A program made the translations under genes and the position numbers. DNA of 64,000 nucleotides from Gloeophyllum trabeum ATCC 11539 (Eukaryota; Basidiomycota; Agaricomycetes; Gloeophyllales; Gloeophyllaceae), in NCBI RefSeq assembly GCF_000344685.1, contig NW_006920425.1:275144-339143 (forward strand). The letters run 5' to 3'. Shown here in pieces: positions 37,501 through 57,678 of the stretch. How positions within the stretch are numbered: the stretch's first letter is position 1; each line of letters starts with the position of its first letter. Below the pieces are notes generated by a model that was given only the letters and a program-made list of their open reading frames with translations, was not told the origin of the DNA and did no database searches.

Positions 37501-38576
37501 TGCCGTTGTACGGTAATCCTGGTGTGGGGTGGTCTATTGCTTGGCGAAGATGGGTCCTAGTGGTCATTGGTATGAGTACGATGCGCCTAGACATTATTCC
37601 TGCTAAACGTTCCGCAGGTTCAGCAGCTTCATTCATCATCATGATGTTCCCGCCCAAGTCGGGTCGCAAAGCGGTCCGGCTACGCAATGCCACGACAATC
37701 AAGAGGATATATAACTTGTATAGTCTGCTTATTTCCAGATGGATTTCAGGCGCCGACGGGGCAGAAAGTCACGTCGGTACAGATGGCAGCCTTGCCGGAG
37801 AGAAATCCGTAGCTCCTGATTCCAAAAGCTGGTCTACGTTCTTTCGCTCGGATTTGGTGAGCATTGCAGAGCAGCTGCAGGCTCTCAAGAGCATGACGGC
37901 TATCGCGAAATGGGAAGGAAATGTTCGCGGAAGCTGGCCGTTTGAGGAATATAATCGCATGGTGGATGTACAGATCCAAATGTTAGGCAATCTTGCACAG
38001 GTGCGCTTGCTTCATGTATCATGAAGTATACAACTATTTACCCAAGGGCTCTCAGCTGGGAGGTGCGCTGTCGCATATGAGCGAGGAGTGGCGGCTTGCG
38101 TTCCTGAAGCGCACCAGAGCGCTTAATCCCAATTTCGTACGTCCTTCCTCATCTGACGATGCCTGCGTAGCTAATAGCGTCCGCAGATTACGGATGTGTT
38201 GTCACTGTTTTCTCTTATCTCTCAGTCCCTTCGTACGGGGGAACCTTTGCACGAGGTCCTTCCAAGCTCCTTATTCGAAAGGCTTGCATACCATCATCAC
38301 CGGACCAGGAAGATTCGAGATGCACCGATAGATGCACCCCAGCTGGAACAGTTGCAGTCGTTGGACTACATGGTTTATGCGAGCGGAATGATTGCTGTAC
38401 TGGAGCTCATAGTGGTCCGTTTCATTATCGTTCATGAAGAGCGGTCAATGTCAGGTCTGACGGAATATGCACAGGGTCTGGATGAATTGCACGCTATAAC
38501 AAGGCGACTCTGCGGTGAAGTCTCCCTCAAGGGTTTCGGGGAATGGAGGAATGAATATCTCCGCGGAATGGTATAA
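34592..38576 (+). CDS. ArAE/DUF2421 multi-pass membrane protein (Bre4-like), 1060 aa
   Basis: Sixteen exons: 34592-34737, 34787-34853, 34912-35036, 35085-35156, 35209-35332, 35386-36625, 36682-36779, 36838-36904, 36966-36993, 37044-37100, 37154-37218, 37275-37399, 37455-37569, 37618-38000, 38056-38136, 38187-38576. The layout matches the fungal family related to brefeldin-A sensitivity protein 4. An N-terminal six-helix block (LFRCWLASWLAFVLLLP, FFSVLVSLMLPPNMPVQMFIF) comes first, then a long cytosolic loop from about residue 200 to 590. A second six-helix FUSC-like block follows (FAAKTVILTICLWLPQV, GNPYGIAASMGVFLVP, LIVGYSWIDGHLPLYG), then a DUF2421 tail containing MMFPPKSGRKAVRLRNA. Relatives resemble aromatic-acid exporters; transport is inferred. 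It borders the metabolite genes and could export their product, but such genes are also common elsewhere. Acceptors at 34786 and 38055 were chosen by family fit. Confidence 0.9.
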
Positions 38577-38692: not shown

Positions 38693-39911
38693 TCAGAGTT
38701 CAGCGCCACCCTCTACCGTGACACCGCCGAATCTCCCTGATTTGAATTCGTCGACCATCTCTCCCATGGTCATCCATTCTACTCCCTCGTGCGAATTGAC
38801 ATATTCGATAAACCTGCAAGAGCACCTCTCGTGCATCAGTATCACCTGAGGCTTCCCACTGACCTGAGGATGAATGGTGATCGGGAAGACAAAGGTATCA
38901 TATTCGCGGTAGAAGTAGTCGAACTGTTCTTTCCACAACCGCTCAATGACGTGGGGGTCAACATAACCTTGCTGAGAAGCAAAGAGATGATCGCACTTCA
39001 ACAAAGGCCAACTCATGAAAACAACGTAGAAGCTCACAGTGTTTGGTTGAGTCGGTACGAATTGGAACGGCGCTGTTTGCATATGGTGAGTCATTCCTTG
39101 GTGGAAAGAGAAGAAACTTATGACGTACGCCAGTCGTCCAAATGCCAGTTAGCTGGAATCTCTACCACAGTGCTAGGATTGATCGCAGTCATGGGTTTCA
39201 TCCACTCCTCCGCCTGTTTCTCAAGGTCGGTCTCGGTCCAAGTGGCAGACCCATCCGGGACGAGATACATTTGGCAGTCGTGGTGCATGAAGGTGTGGTC
39301 GTACTCAATTCCGGCTTCCTCCAATATGTTGACGAGCTCTGGAGTGGATGTCCAATGTGGTCCCGTGAAACCTCGGGGAGGTTTTCCAGTGAAAGAAGTG
39401 ATGACGGAAATCGATTTGGCCATGACATCGCGCTGCTGCTTACTCGACAGGGCTGAGAACCATTCGTGTGTGTATCTCCAGATACGCAGCTCATTCGGAT
39501 TGCAGCCAGTGCCCGTCGAAATAATAAGCTTACCCATGAAGGCCACTGGGCTCTGGTTAGTACGGTCCAGTAGACACCCCGCTGGTGATATCTTACATTT
39601 CATGCCCGGCATCCCTGACCTTCGCCAGCTGCTTGGGAAAACTCTCGATGGAGTGCGCAGGCGCGAACCAGGTACCCTTAATCTGGTACTTATCAAATAA
39701 CTTCAACAATCTGTCGACTCCGACAGTTGCACCGAAGACTCCACGAGAGACATTCGTCGCGTCAGCTTTCTGACCATTGCGGGTGTTGATCCTGGTTTAA
39801 ACTGACGTTAATTAGCCTCAATAACTGCTCGTACTAGTATATGGCTGACCAATTGGATACAGCGTCGACATCAATGCCGTAACCGACGAGGATGCGTTTC
39901 TTGCTCGTCAT
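38693..39911 (-). CDS. CE4 polysaccharide deacetylase (PgdA/PuuE-like), 309 aa
   Basis: Exons (complement): 39850-39911, 39597-39791, 39534-39545, 39129-39475, 39038-39072, 38693-38971. NodB-fold metal-dependent deacetylase of the cytosolic type: YGIDVDAVSNW (motif 1 with the metal Asp), KGTWFAPAHS, GHEIGLHGYTHE (motif 2, His pair), PRGFTGPHW (motif 3), EIPANWHLDDWPPF, then a C-terminal VILMHER. There is no signal peptide, so it acts inside the cell; the substrate may be a small N-acyl or carbamoyl compound rather than chitin. Exon 3 is only 12 bases. A further in-frame 12-base stretch with GT..AG ends (38814-38825) adds four residues inside the last motif. It shares a 444-bp divergent promoter with the Ntn-hydrolase gene, which suggests co-regulation. 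Confidence 0.88.
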
Positions 39912-40355
39912 TTAGCACCGGCTGTTTAGAGGCAAAGGCTGGAGACGGGTCTTCGCGAGGCAGTAATCTGATAGGCATTATAATGCTACTAGTACCCAGT
40001 GGTGTCGTGACTGCTTTGGCCGTTGTTTAAAATTACAGCGATAAGTGAACCTTCCGAGTTGAAAAACGCTTCGACGCCTATTTATGGCGGCGTAACCCAG
40101 ACTGCTGGTACTGGATACTAGTCTGACTCCCGTGTAACATCTCATTAAGACCATTCGCTCTCACGATCTCGTCGCAGGAGAATGACACGAGATTGCAATC
40201 TTATCATCCAATTGTGGCCGTGGCCTCGGATCCCGCGATCTCGTCATGAGCCACCTTCAAGTTGTGGTATAAGGCTAGCGCTCTCAAGCGAGGGAGGATG
40301 CAGAACCCAGATCCCACTAGAACTGTGAACAACACCAGTCCAGGGAACCTTCGGG
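39912..40355. promoter_or_regulatory. Divergent promoter, deacetylase / Ntn hydrolase
   Basis: 444 bases between two start codons that point away from each other, and no gene inside. A shared regulator for both genes is an inference from the arrangement; I recognise no specific binding site. Confidence 0.45.
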
Positions 40356-41617
40356 ATGGCGCTGCTTGAAGTGGATTGCTCCGGAAGTCCGTATGAGGTG
40401 CGTCAAATTACTAGTACAGCTCATACGTATCTCGAACTCTGCGACTGCTCTACGTGCCATTGAACTATCAAAGATTGGCGTTCAGCATGGTCAAGCGGCC
40501 TCTCTTCATATCGGGCGTGCGATAAAGTTCTATGCCGGCCTCTTCCAAGCTTCAGCTAAACTAGATTGGGTTGGTGTATGTGAAAAAGCCGTGGAGTTCG
40601 CTCCAAGTATACAAAGGAAATTTCCCGCTTTCGGCGAGGAGATGAGAGGTACGTATGGACTTAGACGTCTTGAACTTACTACCACGCTTTCTGTCTCTAG
40701 GAATTGCCGATGGTGCAGGTGTGACCTACGCCGATATCTTGGCCTTGAATGTACGGACCGAGATCACGTTCGGTCTCTTCAGTGACGGCTGCACCGCCGT
40801 GTCGTGGAAGACGGACAAGAAGAGCTTCCTGGCTCAAAATTGGGATGTGAGTCCAATTAAATCCCTGTAAGCCATTGTGTCACCATCCAAATGTATCCAG
40901 TGGATGGAGCAACAGAAGGAGAACCTCATAGTCGTTAACATCCATCAAGAAGGCAAACCTCGTATTAGTATGATGACCGAGGCTGGATTGATTGGAAAGA
41001 TCGGTATGAGACTCCGTCTTCCTTGCCTGCCGTTATTTACGTATGATCCAGGGCTCAACTCTGCCGGTGTCGGGGTATGCCTGAACGCCATTCGCGTCAA
41101 AGGCATGGATCCGACTCACCTTCCAGTCCATCTTGGTCTGCGTGTCGTCCTCGAAAGCACTTCCAAAGAAGAAGCCATCTCTCAACTCGAGAAATACGGG
41201 ATAGCTTCATCGGCACATATGTTAATCGCAGACCCAAACGGTGCGGTCGGGCTAGAGTGTACCGCTATAGGTTTCGCCAAACTCCCCATGGACAGTGACG
41301 GCAAGATTGTGCATACCAACCACTTGCTTGCCAAACATCCTGGGGTAGAAGATACGATGTTTTGGAAAGACAGCTTCAACAGGATCGATAGGATCCAGGG
41401 CCTTATGAAGACGCTTCCCAACAACCCGGAAGACAGCGATATCTATGAACTCTTCAAGGACGAAAATAATTTCCCCGCATCAATCTGTCGAGCACAAGCT
41501 GGTGACAGCCGTGCAGCTACCCTGTTCAATATCGCCATGGACTTGACAAGTAAGATGGCTACGGTGACGATGGGGCGCCCGATCGCACCGGAGGAAACTA
41601 TTATATTGGCACCGTGA
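40356..41617 (+). CDS. Isopenicillin N acyltransferase-like Ntn hydrolase (C45), 343 aa
   Basis: Exons 40356-40397, 40474-40648, 40701-40846, 40901-41003, 41052-41617. Homologue of the acyl-CoA:6-aminopenicillanate acyltransferase family. These are made as a precursor that cuts itself before a cysteine, which then becomes the N-terminal nucleophile for amide hydrolysis or acyl transfer. Seen: SDGCTAVSW with Gly102-Cys103, the same position as the processing site of the Penicillium enzyme, then FLAQNWDW, GLNSAGVGVCLNAI and HTNHLL. The C-terminus (ILAP) is not a peroxisomal targeting signal, unlike the penicillin enzyme. It sits between a deacetylase and a synthase and converges on the latter with only 158 bp between stops. 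Acylation or deacylation of the cluster product is the likely role; the substrate is unknown. Confidence 0.9.
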
Positions 41618-41775: not shown

Positions 41776-44700
41776 TCATCCGTCATTCCAGACCGTAGTG
41801 GGCAAATGGGCCATCTTTGTGCTTTTCGACCAAGCATAAATTTCTTCCCATTTCAGATTGATGCCTGACTCGAACAGTTGACCGAAGACGTTTTGCAAGC
41901 CATCGTTGAAGGCTACTATCGTCTGCGTGCTGTCATCAATGAGGCTGCTCGTTGACAGGTCCACGACCATATCGCATCGGGAAGAGAAGCATTCGAGGAC
42001 GGCCGGCACGTCTATCCGTCCGGTGACCACCGAGTTCCAATAGTGATGGCTCTCCGAGAGCTCGGCATCCACCAACCCGCCTAGCTGAGACGACACCAAC
42101 GCCACAGCTCCAGCCTTTCCCCGCTTTCCCCTGCGAGTCTTGTCGTCGGCCAAGCGTCCACGTAAGAACAGGGACGCATCTGTGAATTCCACGCCTTGCA
42201 TCCTCTCCTCCAATTTCTGCAGTATTTCTGGACGACCGGTAATACCAAACATTCGTTGCCCATACTCAGCGCGAACCCAGACTTCATCGGGCCCGAATTC
42301 CAGTAGGTAGTCCTGTAGAGTATCATGGGGGCACCTATCCACGACTTTGGAAGATACATCATGATCCAGAGCCTCGGTTTCGAGTGCCGCAAGGAGGTCG
42401 AATGCATCTTGCAAGCTTAATATGCCAGCAAAGACGGCGGCAATGTACTCGCCTGGTCCTTCTCCAGAGACCACAGAGACTCGACATCCGAAAATCTCGA
42501 GCACCCTTGCCACGGCAAGCTGCCTAGCGAACCAGTCCAGTTCGAGTGTACAACCATGTCTGTAGCATTCTGCCACAGTTTGATGATACATCGGGTTATC
42601 GATGACCGGCAGAAGTTGGGCGTGACGATGAGGGAGACTAAACCATAGAGCAACCGTAGTAGATGGAGGGGACCACATAGGCAAGGGGCCGTCGAGGCTG
42701 GTGCGCACGCACTTGAGTAGTTCATTCCAACTCCGTGCAACCCATGCCCGTCGGTACGGAAGAGGGTCCCGGGCACTTCTCGACGTTCGACATACTTCAT
42801 TAAAAGAAGCCATATGTGCTCCCACAGAATTTGAGAACGAGATAAACCGCCTCATGGTGAAGATGAGTTGTTGCGTAGACGGGGAAGATAAGATAAAGAC
42901 TTGTTCATGACCGTTACTTGCGCTTTGTAGGCAGATACCCTGACCTTCCCCTTCGAGAATGATGTGTGCAAGGGTACCGGAGAGTCCAAACGAGGAGACC
43001 GCACAGACAACTGGCTTTGACGAGTCGGGGTCCACCAAGGCCTGTGCTGTTCTCGGTATGACGATCTTTGACGCACAGGTGTCAAGGTTTGGATTGATGA
43101 ATCCAAGATTCGGCTGAGGAGGAACAGTTTTATATCGCAAGCATAGCATGGTCTTGAGGACGCCTACCAAGAAAGAGGTTACGAAGATATCATGATCGCT
43201 GGGCGGTCTCACCTGTAAGTCCTGCACATTCTTCTGTATGACCCACTACAGCTTTCACAGACCCAATAAGGAGCGGTCTCGTGCGTTTGCCGCCATATAC
43301 CCGATTGATTGCGTCCACTTCGATAGCATCTCCAACGGGCGTTCCAGTGCCGTGTGCTATAGCGCAGAAGGTGAGGATAGTTTTACTTTAGCCTACTCTA
43401 GGCTATGCTTACCCTCATAGTAGTAAATATCGTCGGGCACGCAGCCAGATGTAGTCAGGGCTTTTTGCAAAACATCTGCTTGCGCAGCGGCGTTCGGGGC
43501 AGTAAAGCCTAGAGATCGGCCATCTTGACCGACCGCAGTGCCCCGGATGCGTGCGTAAGGAGTGACACTGATATCCCTACGCCGCTGTATGAAGATCGCT
43601 GTACATGCCTCACTCGGAAGAAAACCATCAGCATCCTCCGAGAAGGTTGAACATTTGCCAGAGCGAGAGCCAATACCCGCTCGAGAGCGGAAGATGGCAG
43701 CGCTCGGCATAAGATGAGTGGTCGCGGCTATTACGAGTGCCGCTTCGCAGTCCCCAGCTTCGATAGATCGACAAGCTGGCCTAGGTTAGCATGTCATACG
43801 CACAGAAGTCGGTGATCAAGTCATACCCTGGTGGATAGCAACTGCGCTGCTGGAACATGCTGTCTTGATGTCCATACAGGGTCCCCTCAAATCAAGGAAA
43901 TAAGCTAAACGCCCTCCCGCACTATCATCCGATGCAGAGCTCCACTTATCGCTGTACTCTGAATGGAATGAGTGTACGGGAGGCAAGGCTGGGATGACGG
44001 TCCCTCACCTTGGAGACTGAGTTTGGAGAAACGGTACTCACGCCAGCCGGAATCATTGAGGCTTGTGAATATTCCCCAGCGTCGCCCTGAAACACTCCTG
44101 GGAGCCATCCCGGCATCTTCCAAGGCATTATACCCATGCTGCATTACTAAGCGAGCATTGGGACTCATTGCCGCGGCTTCGGGAGGGGGAATATTGAAGA
44201 AAGTCGAGAAGCTGTGAACGTCGTCCAGGGGGCGGAGATCCAACCAGCCCATGGGTAGATTTGTGTCTGATACCTCTGAATCCCATCTGGACGAAGGTGC
44301 CTGCCTGCCTAAATGAGCCACGTATGCTTCAGGTGAGACAAGGGTTGACCAAAAGTCGTCTAGAGTGTTCACCCCTCCAGGAAATCGGCAAGATGCGCCA
44401 GAGATGACAAGGTCACTATCATCAGGTGAGACATGATTGCGTCTCTCTTGAGATTCTGGTACTGGTGAAGCAGCTGCGACTTTACCCTTATTATGGGACA
44501 GAAGACGGCACAAATCAGATACGGTATCAGCGGTGTAGAGCTGAGCCCTGCTGATACCAGTTGTGCATAGGGCCCTTAGTGCGTTGGCAAGACGGACTGA
44601 TGCCAAAGAAGTCATGGGCAAATCCGACAGACGAAACTGGGGGGCTTGAACATCCTTCACAGCGATACCAAAGACATCAGACAAAAGCCCTTCGACGCGG

Positions 44701-46708
44701 TCCCGCAGACTAGTATGGTGCTCCGAAACGTAGGTGAAAGACATTGAGGCTGAGGGCAGCTCTTGCAAACTGCTTGAGGGTGCGTGCCACATACGGTTGG
44801 CAGGCCAGCGTCCACCGCAACTGGCTAGTAATTGCTTGACTTTCTTCCTGTGCAGGGTGGATTTACTTGTTGAAGGCAGCTTGTCCACGAATAGTATGTT
44901 GCGACGATGGATCCTCTTTTCAAAGGGAAAGCTCCCATTGAGGTATAGAATAGATTCAACTGCGAGCTCGAGGGATCCATGCTCTGAGGCCAGTTCGATG
45001 AGAGCGACCAGGGCATCACCAGAAGAATCTGTCACAAGTGCTGACCTGACAATGCCAGGCTGAGAGTTCAACATCCGCTCAACACCTAGTGCGTCGACCT
45101 TTACGCCCGAAGACAGGACGACGATGTCGTCAAGACGGCCCAGATAGAAAATACCTATTGGCGTCATCGTTAGTAGCTGATTGTAGGTACAGTCCGCGCT
45201 CACGGACCGGACATAACAGGCTGACGTGTGTCGAACCCAGGCATCTGGGATCCCTTTGTGATGGTCTTCCCATAGAACTCTGACCCGATGCTGTACAGGT
45301 CCCCCGTCCTATATGCTATTGTTCCATCCAGCGAGACTGAGTAAGCATCACTAGTGCCATAGTCGTAACTCGATGGGATACTCTATGATCCCGGAGTGTA
45401 AGTTGACAGAACACGTGGATGGAGACGATATTCGGACTTTACTAAGAATTATAAGTTCCCCAACATCGTCACTGTCCTGTTCCAGCTCTAAGACACCCAT
45501 TAAGCCAGACATGACTTGGAAACCACTGGTAGTGTCCCATGTCTTGGAGAAACACATTCCACCTGCGACCTCCGTCGCACCCACTAAATCCATGTACTTG
45601 ATGTTCTCCTTCTGCGCCCAACGCACAAGCTCAATCGGCGAAGCTGCCCCTGCCGCGCATATGGCGTCGAGGGACCTTAGCCACTGCTTCTCTTCCGGCG
45701 TCATCTCGCGATAGGTCGAGATAAGGATAGTCGGAACGGCGAACAATGAATGGACTGGGTGATGATATGCCAGAGATGCGAGCAGTAGTCGAAGTAAAGG
45801 TGTCTCCGCAGTCATACTCGGGGAAGATATAGACGGATTGTAGAACAGGTAGGATCCGCCGGTTTGAACAACGACTCCACTATATGAAGTATTAACATCC
45901 AAAGACTTTCTCAACCAAGAGTGCGTACTAACAGGAGACCGATGGTCAACTCGAAAGCGTGACTTAAGGGCAGCCACCCCAGATGGCGTTTGGGACTGCA
46001 CGCGTAGCTCGAACCTCCGAAGGCCTTGATAGTCCGCAGACTCGACTCCATCAACGTCAAATGAGTGTAGCTTACACACTTGAGGGTAGCCACATCGACC
46101 CCGGAACTCGTGAACAATACGACCGCTGGATCACTAGGTAGCCTGTCTTTGATACTCCAGGGCATCTCGGCGGGCTCATGCTCATTCTCGCGCACGCATG
46201 CCATGCAGAAACGTATGATTTCGGGAGAATTCCAAGACTCACTGCCACAACTGGAACCACGAACGACTTCTTCCAGGGACAAGATTGGCACGGGACATCG
46301 ACGCCTCCCTCCGACAGCGGACACAAAACCATCAATAGATGACTGCTGCATGAGAACTAGGTCGACCTCAGCTACCTGAATCATAGATAACATGAGGAGG
46401 GGATCAGATTTGATATTCAAGGGCACAGGGACTATTCCCATAATCCAGAACGCCCACAGGCAGATGGGATAGAGTGGACTGTTGTCGGACACGATAGCGA
46501 CTCGCGCCCCATGAGTAGTGCCAAGGCTAGGACAGAGTCCAACGAGATTACGGGGTATAAGGCCGACTGCTAGGGTTTTGCAAGCAGAGTAAGACAGGTA
46601 ATCATTTTCCCTCTCGGCAAGGAAAGGAGCTGATGGGGTCGTCGACGCCCAATGGTCGAGTAAGTCCAGCAGCGTCGGGAAGCGCCGATGAATTTCACCA
46701 GAAGTCAT
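41776..46708 (-). CDS. Hybrid synthase A-ACP-KS-AT, 1521 aa
   Basis: Exons (complement): 45933-46708, 45438-45879, 45208-45382, 44009-45154, 43827-43958, 43413-43775, 43213-43356, 41776-43163. Domains: adenylation about 10-580 ([41 protein letters not shown]), ACP about 610-685, ketosynthase about 713-1150 ([18 protein letters not shown] with Cys881, [23 protein letters not shown]), AT-like about 1225-1500. It should activate a carboxylic acid as AMP ester, load it on the ACP and extend it. Oddities: the A10 lysine is Thr564; the ATP loop reads [12 protein letters not shown]; the ACP Ser647 stands in TSL rather than DSL; the AT motif GHSxG is GEGPG (1293-1297) and its FHS histidine is absent. 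No reducing domain and no ACP follow the AT. No stop or frameshift breaks the model. The KS is intact. Confidence 0.9.
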
Positions 46709-47438
46709 GAGTTGGCCTCGACGTTGGAAGGATGAAGCCGGCTGATTGCTCCCTATATACAGCGGTGTTGGGAAGGAAAAACACAGCGTACCAATTCTGT
46801 CTCAACTTGACTCCGGGGCCCTCGTCAGTGTGGCAAATGCTCCCGCTCAATCGGAACCATCATAACGTTCGCTAAGCACGGACAGCCTGTCATTTGGATC
46901 CTTCGGTGTTCACAGGCAAACCAATAATAACCTCCATCTGATACCAGAAGCGCTGCACCCTGAAGAGGAGTGACTGGCGCGGCCGCGAAGGGACACGTCG
47001 GGGGAGGAAAGCACGCCTGCCCGCAATCACGGTAATCACAATCATCGGTGGTCTCGGAGAAGTTCGGACGCCCACAGAATGGAGCTCCGGCATGTGCCGC
47101 CTCTCCAAGGCTTCAATCCAGTACAGCTCATTTGGAACTTCAACGGGTGCTCTGTAAATCCAGGCAATGCGCAGTCGTAGGCATGACAGGCTATGCGGAA
47201 GACAATCAGATCCGGGACCATCTACGTTAGGGTCTTCCCACTGTTGTATGGTTGTCCATCTAACGGCGATGGCGGTCCTCCGGGCATCCCTTCTTGGGAG
47301 CTTAGCTGTGGGTGACATCTCGTACTGTGGGTCGTAAGCTAGCATCCCGAATTCTGGCCTTTCTACGGGACGGACATTAAGACATCGACTCTCGACGGCG
47401 ACGGACGGGTTCATTTATCATTCCTGTAACTTCATAGA
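46709..47438. promoter_or_regulatory. Divergent promoter, synthase 1 / monooxygenase
   Basis: 730 bases between divergent start codons. A 174-codon open frame on minus (46890-47414) has no domain and lies where both promoters must be, so I leave it out. The shared promoter supports joint regulation of synthase and monooxygenase. Confidence 0.45.
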
Positions 47439-49267
47439 ATGCACGCGTACAGGAAAGCTTCATTATCTCTGCGTTTCGTGATCATCGGTGGTAGCATCGC
47501 AGGCCTCGCATGTGCGTGTGCCCTACAAGATGCCGGACATCAAGTACGGGTGCTGGAAAAGAGCAGTGGCTCTTACACCGGGGTGCGTCATTTCCGTAGA
47601 TCCCTTCGAACATCGACTTACCCCAAGTATCGAGGTGGCGGGAGGTGTGCGTTCACCGCCAAACATGACCCGAATCCTGAACGGTTGGGGTCTCGGCCCT
47701 TATCTGGCGGACGTAGCCCTCAGCAGCCGAGGGATAACCTTCAAGCTGAGTAGGTTAGGCCCTGCTTACACTCTGGAGGGGTTCACAGTTATGCATCACA
47801 ATCAGGTGGTAACGGAGATCATATTGGGACATCCCTATTCCATCAGGATATCATGCAGAGCTTGGGCGCAGAGTATATGTTCATTGCGGTATGGGCATCA
47901 TTGCTGCTTCAATCCCCTATTCCATGCTGATTGAGTGATATCACTTGTAGTACAGTGATCTTCATAATGCTCTATATACTATGGCTCTGGAGGCTGGAGC
48001 AGTCATCCAGTACAATGCAGGGGTCATTAGCATTGATCCCTATACTGCTTCTGTCCATCTCGAAGGAGGTGCTGTGATCGAGGGTGACATTATTATTGCT
48101 GCCAACGGCTTTGATAGTTTTGTGCGTCCTCTTGTTGCAGGCTGTTGTCCCCAGGAAAGCACAATCAAATTTTGCGAGGCCAAGTCAATGAATTGTTACT
48201 TCATCAACCATGGCATTCTGATGATAGCCCAGCTCTTGCATCCCAGCTGAAAGAATGAGAGATGATGAGAATCTTGCAGGTCTTCTGCACACCCCAGAAG
48301 TGAGTTCCATTTGCACTTGTGTTTTTGAGGCTGATGTCAAGAGGCTATAGCTGAGCATTTGGATGGGTGATGGGCATGCTGTTTGGGGCCATCCAGTAGT
48401 GTGTCATTTGCACAAATATTATGGTATCATGACTGATTGCCCCCTAGCACCACAAAGATTCATACGCTGTAGTGATAGCATGGCCTACTAAGCTGGATAT
48501 ATTTAATGAAGATTTTGGAACAGAAATGCCTCTTGAAGTCATTGATTTCAAGATGAATGAGTTAGACAAGAGGTGCGAGTGATTCCTGTGTAGTATCCAT
48601 TTCTGACAAACAAAATTACTAGCTTGTGTGATCTCTTATCCCTGGCTCAGCCACTGAGACCTACACTCTATAAACCACACAAAGGTGAAGCACTTGGAAA
48701 CCTTGTTCATGAAAGTGGTAAGGTCATCTTGGTTGGACATGCAGCACATCCATTGCCCGTGAGTACCATCCAGCATGTCATATTTCCTGCATCTCATTCG
48801 GGTATCATATACAGCCAAATGGAACACAGAACACTGCACTCGTCATTGAGGACGCTGCAGCTCTCGGGACTCTGTTTGCACATCTGAGTTCCCATGATCA
48901 GATACCAAGCCTGGTCAGTGCATTTGAGGAGATTCGTCTCCCTCGCTCTGCAGATGTGATCAAGTCAGAGATCGGCAAGCTCGAAGCTGTTGCCCTTCCT
49001 CACGGCGCAAGTGAGGTGCAAGCGAAGGGCCTCTCGTCAGCACTGTCAATGCCACTAACAAGCTGGGACGATGATATCGAGAACAACCTACGGGCGGAAT
49101 GGGAGGAGCTTATTCGCATGTTCAACTACGATGCTAACGAGGTGGCTGAAGATTGGTGGGTCACATGGGGCTCAATCATGGAACATTCAAGCCCGCCGAT
49201 CGATGGCCCCTCACGCGGCGAGACAGGCATGATGGAGATCACAGTTTCACGTACCCCCGTGTCGTAG
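47439..49267 (+). CDS. FAD-dependent monooxygenase (group A), 471 aa
   Basis: Exons 47439-47582, 47635-47805, 47847-47888, 47951-48183, 48233-48299, 48351-48395, 48448-48572, 48623-48758, 48815-49267. Salicylate-hydroxylase-like family: FAD-binding FVIIGGSIAGLACACALQ, VRSPPNMTRILNGWGL, YSDLHNALYTMALEAGA, DIIIAANGFDSFVR (the DG-type motif reads NG), then GHAAHPLPPNGTQ and IEDAAALGTLF at the second FAD site. Such enzymes hydroxylate aromatic or enol-type substrates with NAD(P)H and oxygen. Oddity: the usual GD at the second FAD motif is GH. Two apparent frame breaks (near 47840 and 48200) vanish if a 41-base and a 49-base intron are accepted; the donors GTGGTA and GTCAAT are weak, so those joins are the least sure part. 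It lies between the two synthases and probably tailors their product. Confidence 0.8.
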
Positions 49268-50313
49268 TTTGTTCTTAGTATGTATGGAATTGACCTATCC
49301 CCATGCCACCACCCCAAAGTCTTTGTTGTTGTCGACAGGCGGTCGTCATTACCACGGCTTGTCTGATCCATGACACTCCCCCTAACCTGAGACACCGGGC
49401 GCAAGCAGGAAAAGATAAGATTCCAAGCTCGACGTCAAACAGGTACATAAACACCGTGAACATCGGTGATGATGCAGCAGGATGTCCGGGTCGGGAATTG
49501 TGCGGACACCAAACGCCAAGGAAGCAGCCAAGTGACAAATCGCGGAATAACGGCCAGCGCATAGCACGAGACGCGAACTCACAGCGATCTGATACCATAG
49601 CCGGTCGGGAAGTCGCACCTACGGGGTAATGATGAAGATGTATAACGAAAGGTGGACCTACAGAATCCATTCCGATACGATGACCGGTCATGAGAAGCTC
49701 TCACGGTTAGCCTCGCAGAGTTTGAGAACCGCGGCGGCCGAAAAGCATACTGATAGTACCTACCGCCCTCGAAAATAGCTGGCAAATTGGCGTAAGACAG
49801 TGGCGCAGGAACAAAATTAGTGGCATTAATCACCTACTAATAGCCTAACGAGAAGTGACCTCCAACAGTGATGAAGTGCAATCTCTGCAGAAGATATTCG
49901 TGCATGAGCCGATCGTCGAACCGCTCTCGCGAGATAGCTTCGCAACTCGGGGATACAAGAAGAGAAGTATGAGAACCTGAGAACATCGTACTTCTGGCTT
50001 GAGGCGACGAATCATGACAGCATCCGTGGGCGAGAGCTTATGATAAGCACATGGAGGGATGCTCTTGAGGCTAGGCGAGGCACATGTGTCAACGGTAAAC
50101 CCAAAGGGACCATCTTCAACATGGTGCTAAGGAACCCGTGCGGAAGACAGGTCAACCTGCTGCATAAGAGCATCAGGACGTTAGGCCACATACCAATATG
50201 TACAATCCCCTATCACGGCGACGAAAGTTTTGATCTATCCATCAGGAGGCAGCAGCAAGAGCTGCGGGTCCCCGAAGCCAAAGAAAGCAGCCCTGCGCTC
50301 AATATACGACCAG
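49268..50313. promoter_or_regulatory. Upstream region of synthase 2
   Basis: 1046 bases without a supported gene. No adenylation or other loading domain is encoded ahead of the second synthase, which matters for its model: it starts directly with a ketosynthase. Confidence 0.45.
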
Positions 50314-53300
50314 ATGTCTGACCAACCTGACCCCATCGCCATCATAGGATGCTCTTGTCGACTCCCAGGGAACGTCCGCAATGCGACTAATTTCTGGACG
50401 CTACTATCAAGTGGTCAATGGGAAGAATGCAGCACAGAACCACCTATATCCCGAGGATTCGACAGGATGCACCCGGAGAGCGTTGGCTATATCAAGCACG
50501 GGGGTTGGTTGGGCCCAGAGGGAGTCGAAGATTTCGACGCGAAGTTCTTTGGCATACCGCCTGGCGAAGCAGAGGTCCTTAGGCCTAACAGTCGGATAGC
50601 TCTAGAGTTGACATGGGAAGCCCTCGAGAATGCAGGCATCCAGCCCAGTGCGCTGAGAGGTAAGAACGTATCGGTGTCCATCGCCATGGGCGCTGAAGAC
50701 GGTTGGGATTTGCGGCGATTTGCCGAAGACGGCCGTGAGGCCTTCGACCATAATTGGGCGCAGAACAGCGATCCCAGTGCTGTGGCGGGACGCGTCTCGC
50801 ATTTCTTCGACTTCCATGGCGCCATCGGGACAGTTTCGGGAGCTTGTGCAAGCGGGGTGAACGCTTTAGAATATGGTAGGATCGCAAGCTCATAGTCGGG
50901 ATGTATTTTCTGAGTTGAAACAGGGACCAATTCGTTTGTTGCACAAGGGGCCGAGCTCGCCGTTGTGGGTGCACTGGCCACTCACTTTACCCCGGCACCA
51001 TTTCTATGGGCTTCGTCCGTCGGAGTTGCCTCTTGTCGGGGGAGGTGCTCTGCATTTTCAGATCAGGCAGACGGTTACCTTCCTTCGGTTAGTCCGATAA
51101 GTATGACGCCTGGTTGGCGCAATTCAACCTATATCATAGGAGGGCGCGGTTTTCTTCATTCTGAAGAAAGCAGCACAAGCAAGGTGCAATGGAGACTGCA
51201 TTTACGCCTTGATACCGAGTATCACTCTGCGACATAACGGGTTCACTCAGACTCTAACCAGCCCCAGTGCGGATAGACAAGCCTCTCAGCTCAGAGAATC
51301 ATTATCTGCAGCTAACATTTCGGCGGGAGATGTGGTGTTACACGAAGGTAGGGTAACTATGTTTTCCAGCGGATGGTTGTTCGATATTTCTAACATGACG
51401 CAGCTCACGGCACGGGCACGATACTCGGCGATATGATTGAGCTTGAAGCCATCAAAAATGTCTACAACGTCAGTCGGGAAGATCCACTGTATCTCACATC
51501 TTCTAAGACGATTGTGGGGCACTGTCAAGCGGCTGCAGCCCTGGTCGGTACGTCCACAAAAATTACCAATCAATGTGCGATCTCACGTGCTTCCAGGAGT
51601 TCTGAAGGTCATATTGTGCATCGTGCACCGCACGATTCCTCCGCATCACATTGAGCCTTACCCAGACCTCAAGGACGGCATTATTCGAGTTCCTATCAGG
51701 CCCATTTGTGTTGGAAATGACCGTCCATTCATTGCCACCGTTAGCGCCCTCGGGTTCAGTAAGTCGAGAAGTTGTTGGAAATCTGCACTTGTACTAAATA
51801 TTATCCGTAGCCGGTGGTGCTGGAAGTATCGTGCTACAAGAACCACCACGACCGTCGGTGGCGAGTCTACCGTCATACAGGCACTATCTTCTACCCTTCT
51901 CTGGAAAAACAAAGGCGGCGCTCCGCACGTCCATGGACTCTGTGGGCCATTGGATAAAGACATGTGACTGCAGTATTCAAGAGCTATCCGTTATTCTCTC
52001 TCTCACGCGGGAACATCACCGAGAACGAAAGGCATTTGTAGTGCAAAGCCTCCGTGAGGCGCTGGCGTGTCTTGGCTTGACTGCACCCGGCGGCTCCTTG
52101 ATCTGTACGCGTGCTGATGATTCAGGGGGGTATGGCTCAGAGTGCTCTGATGCTCCAGACATTAGGGAGCTTGCTTCATCGTCTTCACACCCCCTGGCTA
52201 CACTCGCCTATATGTATGAAACTGGACGCGATTTGGATTTCTCACTTGCGTACTGCAGGAGTATGATCCCAGCACATTTATTGCGTAGTTTCCCCACCTA
52301 TCCTTTTGAGAGGGAGCGGTATTGGCGTTATCCCCCGTCACGTCCAAAACCCGAGGTCGCTGGGTTCTCGCTCCCAAGCCCCGTCTCGGTATCCTGTCCT
52401 GACAGTGATGCGACAGGACGAGATTCGGACTCTAACACGTCTCACCTTTCTGTCCAGTCTGTCTCAGCCATCGTCTCCAAGCTGCTCCACCAGGAAATGG
52501 TCGAAATTGACCCAAGGGCCAGCGTATTCGACTTGGGAATAAATTCGCTGAGCAGTATAGAACTCGCCCAATCTCTGTCCAGAGGGTTCTCGCGCACTAT
52601 CAGCGTAGGCGACCTCTACAGGCTTAGCACCATATCTTCTATCTACGACTTCCTCGTTGGTCGGTCAGGGTACTCTTCCGTCTGTACCCAGGGGCATCTG
52701 GATGCTCTGATAGAGAAGTTCTCCGCACCTTTCAGGCACTTCCCTCAAGACGCACACCGACGTCCCAACAGAGAATCGGAAACGACGATCGTGTTGACAG
52801 GTGCGACTGGGTTCCTTGGCTCTCGCATTCTTTCTCGACTCCTGCGCATGCAGTCCGTAAAGGTGGTATGCCCGGTCCGTGGTAGCCACCCAGCACGATT
52901 AGATCAAGTCTTCGGGGCTCGAGGCCTCGACAGAGACGTTTTGCAGCACGCTTTGCAGCATGGCACCCTGCGCGTGGTAACAACTTCAGGTCTAGGCGAT
53001 CCCCTCCTCGGGTGCTCGGACGAAGTGCATCAAAACATCTTGGGCTCCGTGGATGTGATCATTCATTGCGCCTGGAAAGTTGACTTCAACCACCACCTGC
53101 CAGGATTCGAAGCGGACTTAGCCGGGGTACGATCACTGGCCGAAGTCGCAGTTCGAAGCAGAAAGACACCCAAATTGTACTTTATCACGAGTTTCAGCGC
53201 ATCTTTTGGTTACGAAGGCGTCTCGGTCCCAGAGGTTCCATTGGACTGCAAGATTGGTCACGCATTGTCCCAGGTTTGTGGCGAAATTGAAACATTCTGC

Positions 53301-55516
53301 GGGGTTCTTATTTATCTTTTAGGGGTACGCTGTATCCAAGCTAGCAGCTGAGTACATCCTGTACGGTTTACGTGACCGTTACCCCGGACGCTTTGCACTG
53401 GGCATAGTCCGAGTAGGTCAAATCTGCGGTGATTCCAGGAGCGGCGGTTGGAATACCAATGAGATGATACCGATGGTCTTGCGTTCAATCTTTGCCTTGG
53501 GCATGGTTCCAAGGGCTCTACCTGATGTCTCATGGGTTCCTGTCGACGTGTGTGCGGATGCAATCTGCGATTTTGTCAGTGATGCCCTCTGCGAGCGAAG
53601 GCAGGCACTAATGGTCTACAACGTGGCTAATCCCGAAATCGTTGCATGGCCAACGGTTGTTCGGTATGCAGCAAGTGCCCTGGACTGCCCCATGCCTCGT
53701 ATGGTGGACCTCGGCGAGTACATCAAAGCCCTTGAAGCCTTTGAAAAATCACTCAATGCGGACGAACTCCTTGTCCGTCGATTGCTTCCATCATTGAAGG
53801 AAGCTGCAACCACTTCAGGTTTCCCGTCGAGATACTGTCCTCTGGATGTTCGCGAGTCACTTAAGTTCAGCCCATCCCTATCCAACTGTCCAGTGATAGA
53901 TGAGGAGTTTGTCAGGTTGCTCATGCACAATATGAGCGGCGTCTCTGTCGAGGTATGTCAAGGTTCTCCGCAAGCACTTGTTGGTAGCGATACCGTTAGT
54001 GGCGTTCAGTATGCATTCGTGTTTGGTCCTTGGGCAGGTACCGTCACGAGCTGGCCCTCAGACCTTGCTTACAATCGGATTTTGGAACGGCTCTTTGCTC
54101 GTGCGGAACAAGAACGTTCAGAGCCGTGCATAACTGATGATAGAACGTGAGCTGTTCGCGAAAATCTGCATTCTTAATCGTGAAAATGATCTCGTGTCTT
54201 CTAGTCACGGCACCACACAGAATGCCCTCCAGTTCCAATTGCGTGCGCTAGCCTATCAGCTATTTAACGTCGAAAGACTCAGCAGGACTGGAATACGACC
54301 GTCACTCGTGACAGGCTATTGCTTTGGTGAATTCGCCGCGGCAATTATTGGTGGTCGTGCCAGCGAGGCGGATGTGGTGAAGGTCTTAGTTCAACGAGAT
54401 CTGGCTATTCGAACCAGCCGGCACAAGAAAACCGTTCGAGATATCTCCTTGGATGCTGATGGAGGACGAGAGGACACGGCCGCAATGTTGAATGTATTCC
54501 TCTCCGCCGCCATCGTCCAGCGGCACCTCATCCTTATTGGCGCGGAGCTCGATATAGCCATCCACGCAGGACCCATGCACACAATTATATCTGGTTGCCC
54601 CGCAGCAATCTCCCGTGCAGAGGCTTATTTTCTCGCCCGACAGCTTCCATGCAAATTGATAGCAACTGATATACCGTTCCATTCCAAGCAGATGAACGGC
54701 GCTGTCGATCTGCTTCGGCAGTTGCTGGGCGAAGCACGTCCCGTTAGTTCCTCAGACAAGTGCATCTACCTATCCGGGTTGACCGGAAATGTGCTGTCGA
54801 AAGGTTCCCTAGCGATGGCTTACTGGATGCGGCACATGCGGGAGCCTGTGCGCTTCTCAGAATGTATGCAAGTACTTCATCGCATGAGGCATTCAGAAAG
54901 TGGCTCTGCGTCAACAGCAGGCTGGACATTCGTTGACATGGGGCCCGGTATGGCTCTGACGAGTATCGTAGGAAGATACCAGTGGGAGGACTTCCAGTTG
55001 GTGTCAGTGGATCAATGTCTTCACCATTCACATCCCCTCGATAAACTCTCTCCTCTAATCAGACACACTAGAGATGACCCACCGCCTAAGACGGCAGAAC
55101 CAGCGATATCGCTCTCCCGGTCAAATTCCTTGCAAGATCCGATGCTCTGCGAGTCTAATACCCCTGCGAGTCGTACGCTCCAGACGGGCTTGCGCATGGT
55201 GAAGAGCCTCGGTACCCATCTACACACAGACGTCCATGAACTAAAGATCCCGAGTCCTCCTTTGACTGCCGCCCCTTTGCCGGTGGAGAACAACGACACC
55301 CTCAAGTCCGCCTTCCTTTCAACCATGTCTGATCTTTTTCGTTACGCTCCCGAGTCTGATAGAACATTACTCCGAGGGACGTTCATCGGTCTCGGGATCG
55401 ATTCTCTGAGCTTCGTACGCCTTTCGCAGGCGCTGAGGGACAAAACAGGACGGACGCTCCCTGCGTCGGCATATACGTCTGGGGCTTGTATCGAGGACAT
55501 TTTACGTAACTTGTAG
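50314..55516 (+). CDS. Hybrid synthase KS-ACP-TR-AT-ACP, 1612 aa
   Basis: Exons 50314-50875, 50924-51087, 51140-51347, 51404-51547, 51597-51758, 51811-53273, 53323-54146, 54205-55516. Domains: ketosynthase about 5-430 (PIAIIGCSCRLPGN, GACASG with Cys178, EAHGTGT with His313, KTIVGHCQ with His351). A short linker ends in SFPTYPFERERYW, the sequence that normally follows an AT. ACP with Ser660 (GINSLSS) is next, then thioester reductase about 740-1110 (LTGATGFLGSRIL, YAVSK 903-907, NADPH), acyltransferase about 1130-1500 and a second ACP with Ser1576 (GIDSLSF). Placing AT-ACP behind the reductase is unusual, because reductases normally end the line. One exon (53323-54146) runs from the reductase into the AT, so it is a single protein. 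The AT nucleophile motif is GYCFG (Cys1215) instead of GHSxG; IPFHS is kept. Likely partner of the minus-strand synthase. The first Met is the one in frame with the KS. Confidence 0.9.
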
Positions 55517-55760: not shown

Positions 55761-56833
55761 TCATACTTGTTGCATCGAGGACGAGATCCGATCCACCGGG
55801 TCGGATGGTGACTTCTCCGGACGAGTAGTGTCTTGCTCAGGGTTGAGGCGCCAGTACCGATAGCTACAGTGTATAAGCACTGAGTGTCCAAGCTTCGACG
55901 GGAAGTATGATGTACTCACTGTTTAAGAATGGCGTAGAATAGGGAAGCAAGCAAAGACCCGAGGAACGGGCCGACCCAGTACTATACAACGTTGAAGATG
56001 ATATCAGAAATGCATCTGGCCGAGAGACGCGTGAGAGACGCACCACCCAGTGATGGCCGTCGGGAAACCCGGTGACGACGGCTGGCCCGAATGCTCGTGC
56101 TGTATTGAGTGAACCGCCGGTGTAATATACAGACCAGAGCTCAGCGACGAAGAGTGTCAGACCGATGCCTAGCTGCAAAATAATGACGAATTGTCAGTCG
56201 GCGCGTATATGGAAAGACACGACAGCAGCACCAGCGTACAGGTGCGAAGGGCGTCGATTGGTGCTTCTCGGCGGCGAGCATGAGGACGGATAGTACGAGG
56301 GCAGCGGTGACGAACATCTCGATGAAGACGCCCTGCGCGGCATTGATGCCCGGACCTAAGATGGTGCTGCACATAAATGACAGTTAGGAATCCTCACTAT
56401 CAGCAACGGCATGAGTCACTAACTTGCTAGCCAGTGGGCCAGGGGTCAGCGCAAGCACAAGCGCCGCAGCTGCGATACTCCCGACGAGCTGCGCTATACA
56501 GTACAGCACGAATCGCACTGGACCGATCACCCCACATATGAACAGCGCCAGGCTAACGTTCGGGTTAAACAACCCTCCTGTGACTCTGAAGAACAGCCAC
56601 GCAGACACTGCAAGGCTAAAACCGAAGCATAGGGAGATGTATAGTATCCTTTCGATATTGGACACAGTATTCGGTGTGGACTGCGCTTCGGCGGTGACCG
56701 CTTGCACGCCACCAAGGGCAAAGAGGAGGAAGATAGTCGTCCCAACAAACTCGAGGAAGGCGGCGAAGAGGTCGTCAGTTATGGTGGCGAAGAGCCCTTG
56801 CGAGGACATCGTCTGTGGGCGAATACGAGGCAT
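55761..56833 (-). CDS. Aquaglyceroporin-like MIP channel, 276 aa
   Basis: Exons (complement): 56424-56833, 56240-56366, 56044-56172, 55920-55981, 55761-55863. Six-helix major intrinsic protein for water, glycerol or other small neutral molecules. The N-terminus FLEFVGTTIFLLFALGG is helix 1. The first pore motif is GGLFNPNVSLALF (NPN instead of NPA) and the second GGSLNTARAFGPAVV (NTA instead of NPA). The tail LKHYRYWRLNPEQDT is characteristic of basidiomycete members and sets the last splice. Length is normal for a short fungal MIP. It lies 244 bp from the stop of the second synthase, in convergent orientation. It may simply be a neighbour, or may move a small precursor or product. Confidence 0.92.
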
Positions 56834-57678
56834 GGTGAAGCGTGAGGTCGTTGAACCGGCGGTAACGACACCTGAACCTTATATTACAAGTGTACGCCAA
56901 CGTCATTCGTTGTTAAAGGACTTTGCAGTGGCATAAAGTGACGCTCTGCAAAGCCCTTGACGCTATCGCCAAGGCCCGGGGCTACATTGGAGGTAGTTTG
57001 ACAGGTTTGACAGCTCCAGGTCTGTGAGGATTGTATTTTACTATGAGCGACGATCGGAACCCACGTACATTAGGAATGCACGAGTTCCACTCATGCGCGT
57101 CGTATTTATTCTCTGCTCGAGATCGAGGCTTGCCATACCAGCCTTGTCACAGGATAATGTGATGCCGTTCATTTCATTTTCTAGCGCAAGAGGAGGAAGG
57201 GCAACTGTTACAATGGCTGCTCCTGGCAATCACTTACTATAGTGGATTGACGCGCTCCAATCGTTCTCGAACGCTCGGGAGTGATTGCCACAAACGCTCC
57301 AATTACAAGGCCCCTCCAGGAACACTGACGTGGACCCTAACCTTGCCGGGGTGCTTCGTGCTCCGGACCCCGGTAGACTCGATGAGGTTCTCACTGAGAC
57401 AGCATGTAACGCCATTCTAACTGCAGCTGCTATCATGAGCTGAAATCTGTTGAAATGAGCGACGACGAAAAATCTCAAGTTTCGTCAGTACAACTTGCAG
57501 TAAGGTTACACATTTTCGGAACCATCGTGCGGGTCCATTGCCCGGGTCACGGGGGCCCCTCTTCAAAGCTAAACATACAACACAGGGTATCATAGGATAG
57601 GACACAGTCCTAAAAACAAATCACGATGCCTTTGGAAATCAAAGATAATAACTACGCAAAAAGCCAACTGCTCAAGAC
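56834..57678. other. Intergenic, no supported gene
   Basis: 845 bases containing the aquaporin promoter on the left and the 3' flank of the secreted-protein gene on the right. Only short frames occur. Confidence 0.5.

Follow-up and report, generated by a model that had tools for sequence, protein, structure and literature searches.

In hispidin synthase, an adenylation (A) domain and an acyl carrier protein (ACP) stand ahead of a ketosynthase (KS) and an acyltransferase (AT), and this AT is a working one with a GHSxG motif. In ascomycetes, zearalenone and radicicol are, among others, each formed by a pair of polyketide synthases (PKSs), one highly reducing (HR-PKS) and one non-reducing (NR-PKS), and the portion of the article used here states that composite PKS pathways of this kind are not yet known in basidiomycetes (PMC10401856). 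The stretch of DNA analysed here (the window; 64,000 nucleotides of the brown-rot fungus Gloeophyllum trabeum ATCC 11539, contig NW_006920425.1, positions 275,144 to 339,143) lies on a scaffold of 801,214 bp in a genome of 35.5 Mb and carries two neighbouring PKS genes. Gene 1 encodes an A-ACP-KS protein that ends in an AT-like region (pseudo-AT), and gene 2 encodes a KS-ACP-TR-AT-ACP protein, where TR is a thioester reductase. We assign a probability of about one half to the reading that the pair is a two-protein type I PKS of Agaricomycetes, in which protein 1 would load and condense, the AT of protein 2 would serve in trans, and the TR would release the product.

As in the ascomycete HR-PKS/NR-PKS pairs, two type I synthases would give one product, and GxCxG is found in the second of them; the pair differs from these in having no reducing domains, a Cys-type AT near the C-terminus instead of the N-terminus, and loading by an A domain (PMC10401856, in part). 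The trans-AT PKSs of bacteria and algae resemble gene 2 in that no AT lies between KS and ACP and the AT comes from elsewhere, algae being described in the portion used as displacing their ATs (PMC4661987). The AT of gene 2 is, however, fused behind the TR and not free-standing, a locus on C24 (described below) may be a discrete AT, and the KSs of the pair form their own clade, with an uncertain deeper position. Tenuazonic acid synthetase TAS1, with the order condensation-A-peptidyl carrier protein-KS (C-A-PCP-KS), is likewise a fungal protein whose single chain joins an activating domain, a carrier and a KS and lacks a working AT, but its KS has Cys-His-Asn (C-H-N) and cyclises (PMC4640141, in part), whereas the KS of gene 1 has Cys-His-His (C-H-H) and is accompanied by a pseudo-AT and a partner protein. 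Adenylate-forming and aminoadipate reductases (A-thiolation-reductase, A-T-R) share the TR family and the A subdomain PF23562 with the pair; they hold A and R in one chain, whereas the pair has them in separate proteins, each with a KS.

A description of the gene pair was not found in the literature searched, which held few subscription papers, and an earlier mention of the architecture is possible. One up-regulated hybrid of nonribosomal peptide synthetase and PKS has been reported from G. trabeum, and the portion of that article used gives no gene number by which it could be tied to gene 1 (PMC7399148). A conserved synthase with a dead AT beside a permuted, AT-bearing partner would allow division of labour to be tested directly, and the pair also bears on the displacement of ATs in fungi and on the retention of a dead domain as a scaffold.

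The AT region of protein 1

Gene 1 (41776..46708, minus strand) consists of eight exons (46708-45933, 45879-45438, 45382-45208, 45154-44009, 43958-43827, 43775-43413, 43356-43213 and 43163-41776) and encodes 1521 amino acids (aa). The model was supported by splicing and by the protein P0001 (1522 aa), to which it was 97% identical over the full length in the protein search, and Pfam domains were assigned by scanning both the single exons and P0001. All on the minus strand, the A domain core (PF00501) was located at 45447..46654, its C-terminal subdomain (PF23562) at 44832..45134, the ACP with its conserved Ser (PF00550, alignment and profile scan) at 44502..44702, the KS with C-H-H (Pfam and alignment) at 43105..44414, and the KS-AT linker (KAsynt_C_assoc / CurL-like; Pfam) at 42697..43029. 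These were followed by the pseudo-AT at 41827..42660, which has an AT fold without the catalytic Ser and carries GEGPGE at 42448-42465 (alignment, Pfam, AlphaFold2 and Foldseek), and by a remnant of the post-AT linker at the end of the protein (41779..41811; alignment).

The 16 relatives heading the protein search (best 120 of 378 matches) were taken as the gene 1 family. Thirteen of them were assigned to Agaricomycetes species, namely Dentipellis, Sanghuangporus sanghuang, Collybia nuda, Heterobasidion irregulare, Hysterangium stoloniferum, Armillaria solidipes, Cyclocybe aegerita, Mycena floridula, Amanita inopinata, two Pleurotus, Lentinula edodes and Rickenella mellea, and one was a fragment (P0016). 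Identity to gene 1 was 33-42% for 14 members besides P0001 and 44% for the fragment.

The scan with the Pfam AT model took in the window exon and 15 of the relatives, with P0015 left out; at E values up to 1 the model matched 0/16, and two KS-AT linker families matched all 16. In an alignment with 14 bacterial ATs, the position of the Ser in GHSxG was occupied by Gly in gene 1 and in 16/16 relatives. The bacterial ATs had been picked by the GHSxGE motif, present in 14 of the 16 named, and their 14/14 is given by construction; all 16 gene 1 relatives and all eight gene 2 proteins fitted the motif pattern used for cutting. The catalytic His was kept in one of the 16 relatives, as was the conserved Arg (1/16). 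An AlphaFold2 model of the region (461 aa) had a mean predicted local distance difference test score (pLDDT) of 75 and a predicted template modelling score (pTM) of 0.72. In a Foldseek search of the PDB it resembled KS-AT didomains (best E value, 1.4e-21), and isolated ATs in the PDB gave template modelling (TM) scores of 0.63-0.68 on the target. These alignments and the predicted structure indicate that the AT of gene 1 is a structural scaffold within the KS-AT core, unable to load malonate. ACAS, an active ascomycete synthase, needs its inert GxGxG domain, probably for structure (PMC10401856, in part). Such NR-PKSs resemble gene 1 in that an acyltransferase domain has Gly in place of its nucleophile and is inert, but there it is the starter unit-ACP transacylase (SAT) domain, whereas in gene 1 it stands in the position of an elongation AT.

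The loss of Ser, His and Arg from the AT, together with an odd P-loop, would also be seen if gene 1 were a degenerating copy that had lost its AT residues by drift. However, the 14 full-length relatives and the fragment share these losses and the point at which the protein stops, the second gene 1 copy of the genome (described below) has an equal AT motif, P-loop and ending, and no relative with a working AT was seen in the family. In addition, the KS Cys was kept in 17/17 aligned gene 1 rows, and the ACP Ser in 16/16 rows covering the position. A decaying locus is thus very improbable, and gene 1 as a pseudogene was rejected by losses that are family-wide while the KS Cys and the ACP Ser are intact. 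Because the AT fold, the ACP Ser and the KS Cys are kept, the conserved loss of AT function looks like the outcome of selection and not of decay.

When an ACP profile was run against all six frames of the whole window, three ACPs passed the inclusion threshold: one belongs to gene 1, two belong to gene 2, and the region downstream of gene 1 has none. Furthermore, each of the 16 relatives stops no more than 21 residues from the post-AT linker and lacks a second ACP. An annotation error as the cause of the missing ACP was rejected by the scan and by the equal ending of the relatives, and the ACP-less ending is, as far as the aligned proteins go, a trait of the gene 1 family. With a dead AT and no downstream ACP throughout the family, protein 1 as predicted lacks what a complete elongation unit needs.

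The P-loop of the A domain (46079-46114, minus strand) is not of the TSGSTGxPK type. In the family it reads FTSS[AG][VI]x5K in 15/15 members covering it, and the canonical form was found in 0/15; the reductases aligned with this A domain have TSGSTGxPK or close forms, and a variant one residue longer, present in two fungal reductases, also escapes the strict pattern. The adenylation-domain motifs known as A5, A7, A8 and A10 are kept in the gene 1 family rows covering them.

The displaced AT of protein 2

Gene 2 (50314..55516, plus strand) also has eight exons (50314-50875, 50924-51087, 51140-51347, 51404-51547, 51597-51758, 51811-53273, 53323-54146 and 54205-55516), and all 14 introns of the two genes are GT..AG introns of 48-58 nt. 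Splicing and identity to a public model support it: the protein is identical to P0121, G. trabeum GLOTRDRAFT_96463 (100% over 1612 aa). On the plus strand, a KS at 50329..51646 (Pfam and alignment) is followed by a KS C-terminal linker and then a post-AT linker (FPTYPFERERYW at 52290-52325), and the two linkers are not separated by an AT (51665..52325; Pfam and alignment). ACP1 lies at 52461..52655 (Pfam and profile scan), the TR (NAD_binding_4, with Y-x3-K; Pfam and alignment) at 52794..53565, the AT at 54001..54997 (Pfam, alignment and structure search) and ACP2 at 55295..55510 (Pfam and profile scan). The AT of gene 2 therefore sits after the TR, and its usual slot between KS and ACP1 is without an AT and retains the post-AT linker.

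The AT carries GYCFGE at 54314-54331 and keeps the Arg and His. Among the eight proteins of the gene 2 family, the nucleophile motif was GYCFGE in seven and GYSFGE in one, His and Arg were kept in 8/8 each, the Tyr and Lys of the TR were kept in 7/7 aligned rows of the family, and all five domains were present in 5/8 models. The AlphaFold2 model of the AT-ACP exon was weak (pLDDT 56), and its matches to ATs in the PDB (best E value, 2.3e-8; TM about 0.35) are supportive only. ACP2 has the motif GxQS in place of GxDS in P0124, P0125 and P0126 (Sanghuangporus baumii, Fomitiporia and Collybia nuda). No KR (ketoreductase), DH (dehydratase) or ER (enoylreductase) family was among the Pfam matches of gene 1/P0001 or gene 2, and reductive release without these domains fits the predicted domain content. 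Both genes have a KS with C-H-H and an ACP with Ser, as in type I PKSs.

In malonyl transferases, the Arg binds the carboxylate of the substrate. Since this Arg is retained, malonyl is the likeliest substrate of the gene 2 AT, judged by its residues. The GxCxG of this AT also fits the signature of SAT domains, and the GxCxG/GxSxG acyltransferase expected of a receiving synthase was found in the gene 2 family (Cys in 7/8, Ser in 1/8). GYCFG agrees with the SAT signature given in the portion used of PMC10401856, and the Cys-type AT might thus be a receiver that takes a diketide from protein 1 on to the ACP and KS of protein 2, as in the ascomycete HR/NR partners. This hand-over is unlikely, given that the carboxylate-binding Arg is kept in 8/8 proteins and that PF00698 alone was listed for the domain, the SAT model not being among the matches.

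The initial annotation of the window had described two large intact genes with a flavin adenine dinucleotide (FAD) monooxygenase between them, which splicing, public models and Pfam bear out. It had read the first as A-ACP-KS-AT without a downstream ACP and had asked whether this gene runs on into a further one; A, ACP, KS and the absent ACP stood, and the working AT did not (Ser to Gly). The KS, two ACPs and reductive release domain of the second gene agree with the Pfam order KS-ACP-TR-AT-ACP, and the stated absence of KR, DH and ER was likewise recovered. In these predictions the anatomy it gave is sound; the dead AT of gene 1 and the displaced AT of gene 2 had been overlooked.

Relationship of the two genes and a proposed division of labour

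A phylogeny of both KS domains, as proposed in the initial annotation, placed the two families as sisters in three trees. In the tree of 60 rows, the KSs of gene 1 (KS1; 17 rows) and of gene 2 (KS2; six rows) each formed one clade and jointly one clade, with support of 100/99. The joint clade persisted at 100/99 after removal of two own-genome rows (second tree) and, with these two rows likewise removed, at 100/100 under a simpler model (third tree). The 33 bacterial rows were hand-picked from the matches, and four own-genome rows made up the other fungal sampling. Left out were P0001 and P0121 as near-copies, P0127 and P0241, which have no KS, and one own-genome row of 171 aa.

Two copies each of gene 1 and gene 2 were recognised in G. 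trabeum, all on one scaffold. The second gene 1 copy (L023/L024; G000:C16:503389-508254) has the dead-AT motif SGEGPAE, the altered P-loop FTSSPVATSSLK and an equal ending. The second gene 2 copy (L021/L022; P0122, 46%) lies at G000:C16:416686-421833, about 82 kb away. A PIF1-like helicase, presumably of the type found in Helitrons, was seen about 6-7 kb upstream of the second gene 2 copy, and a copia-type gag gene near the second gene 1 copy. Also near the second gene 2 copy (L026:35-747 and 5356-7361) are halogenase-like frames and a major facilitator superfamily (MFS)-like transporter (Pfam below the cut-off); by their motif we take the former to resemble a flavin-dependent halogenase, with no Pfam match.

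The protein searches covered the best 120 of 378 and of 531 matches, in clusters at 90% identity with about 8,000 candidates scored; candidates were chosen by shared words and length, and the results depend on gene models. A third search, whose length window reached up to about 1531 aa and so passed over longer gene 2 proteins, added Pleurotus ostreatoroseus only. Among the matches listed, gene 1 was found in 13 named species besides G. trabeum and gene 2 in seven with G. trabeum included. Gene 1 and gene 2 relatives each lie on a contig of 522231 bp in Dentipellis and on one of 265056 bp in Collybia nuda, and Sanghuangporus and Pleurotus have both genes at the genus level only. The pair also hints at an unassigned metabolite family in at least 13 further named Agaricomycetes, for example Lentinula edodes, two Pleurotus species, Armillaria solidipes and Heterobasidion irregulare.

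In the two-protein reading, protein 1 would be the loading and first-condensation subunit, whose A domain would activate a carboxylic acid and load its own ACP, from which KS1 would take it up. Because the AT of protein 1 cannot load malonate, malonyl would have to be delivered in trans, with the Cys-type AT of protein 2 as the likeliest donor. This AT might refill the lone ACP of protein 1 once the starter has moved to KS1; as another option, it might charge the ACPs on protein 2 for KS1 to condense against. KS2 may extend the chain further, without reduction, and the TR would free the beta-keto chain as an aldehyde or alcohol, as the domain content suggests. The neighbouring FAD monooxygenase might perhaps oxidise the product. 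The split line proposed in the initial annotation would thus have a concrete form, a dependence of protein 1 on a trans AT, because the AT is dead throughout its family and a displaced Cys-type AT stands in the partner. That proposal is favoured by the incompleteness of protein 1, the presence of the missing parts in protein 2, the sister KSs and the contigs of equal length; it is weakened in that the halves are unsymmetrical and their co-occurrence is incomplete, the pair having been found in Dentipellis and Collybia nuda.

Several observations weigh against the two-protein reading. Among the matches listed, gene 2 was not found in 11/13 named gene 1 species, nor gene 1 in 4/6 gene 2 species other than G. 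trabeum. In 15/15 members the A domain has a non-canonical P-loop, and acid activation by protein 1 is putative. In BLAST, KS1 matched bacterial KSs at up to 280 bits and 39% identity, against 222 bits and 32% for KS2, and the branches joining the KS families in the tree are long. The two G. trabeum gene 1 copies stand apart in the KS tree and the two gene 2 copies share a three-row clade with Heliocybe, so that the copies do not clearly appear to have been kept as fixed pairs. The GQGxQ motif is lost in the gene 2 AT, and three of the eight gene 2 models have domain gaps (ACP1 in P0126, KS and ACP2 in P0127, KS in P0241), reflecting either faults of the gene models or true loss. No obvious docking helices were seen by eye, with no dedicated test made.

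Protein 2 alone has a KS, an AT, ACPs and a TR, each domain needed for elongation and release, and may prime itself from malonyl. SAT-less basidiomycete synthases can prime with malonyl-CoA according to the portion used of PMC10401856. The two proteins might accordingly be independent enzymes, protein 2 being a self-sufficient iterative and permuted synthase primed by decarboxylation of malonyl, and protein 1 having another partner or role; the unequal species counts of the two genes point the same way. On the other hand, the genes are neighbours here and lie on contigs of the same size in Dentipellis and in Collybia nuda, and the KS families are sisters. For this genome 13 AT matches were listed, a list that is incomplete since the second gene 2 copy is absent from it. 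One of these was gene 2, nine had a KS match no more than a few kb away, one belonged to a fatty acid synthase, and two marked a single locus on C24. The best match (C12) was rejected as a free-standing malonyl transferase, as it is part of what we take, from motifs and neighbouring frames, to be the fatty acid synthase. The C24 locus (L028:2686-4196; G000:C24, about 61.2-62.7 kb) has a GFSLGE motif and PF00698 in two frames, and the 8 kb covered there held no KS match; the locus may represent either a discrete AT or a synthase that has been broken. As such it may be another possible trans donor, which favours independent enzymes, whereas the other AT matches accompany a KS or belong to the fatty acid synthase. 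Independent enzymes are, in balance, possible but rather doubtful.

A stricter form of the two-protein reading, to which we hold only tentatively and which probably claims too much, is an obligate two-subunit eukaryotic PKS conserved in Agaricomycetes, with a scaffold-only AT, a rebuilt P-loop, a trans-acting Cys-type AT behind the TR and KSs from one ancestral KS. If true, mushrooms would thereby have their first composite two-PKS pathway.

The FAD monooxygenase and other neighbouring genes

The FAD-dependent monooxygenase gene (PF01494, FAD_binding_3; 47439..49267, plus strand) lies between genes 1 and 2 and has nine exons encoding 465 aa, with the junction of intron 4 unsure. Its family has many matches in the G. 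trabeum genome. A fixed place of the gene in the unit is not supported, since 0/51 listed matches lay near the second gene 1 or gene 2 copy.

With A and ACP fused before a KS-AT core and an adjoining FAD monooxygenase, the locus is like hispidin synthase, whose pathway also includes a flavin enzyme, and it could be taken for a caffeic-acid cycle cluster of hispidin synthase and hispidin-3-hydroxylase. However, the tested hispidin synthase orthologues have KR, DH and a C-terminal ACP (PMC9866795, in part), whereas gene 1 has neither a second ACP nor the AT Ser and has a TR-bearing partner. The name hispidin synthase was also absent among the best 120 of 378 matches, and the FAD gene belongs to a family common in this genome. 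With the AT of gene 1 dead, this assignment was rejected as highly improbable.

Next to gene 1 and convergent with it, ending 159 bp away, is a gene of the acyl-CoA:6-aminopenicillanic acid acyltransferase family (40321-41617, plus strand; PF03417 in 40871-41617), a possible tailoring or amide-forming partner. Farther out lie a polysaccharide deacetylase-like frame (39118-39702, minus strand) and a gene for an ArAE_2_N / BRE4 membrane protein (34816-38024, plus strand). An aquaporin-type gene of the major intrinsic protein (MIP) family (56384-56878, minus strand) is located just past gene 2.

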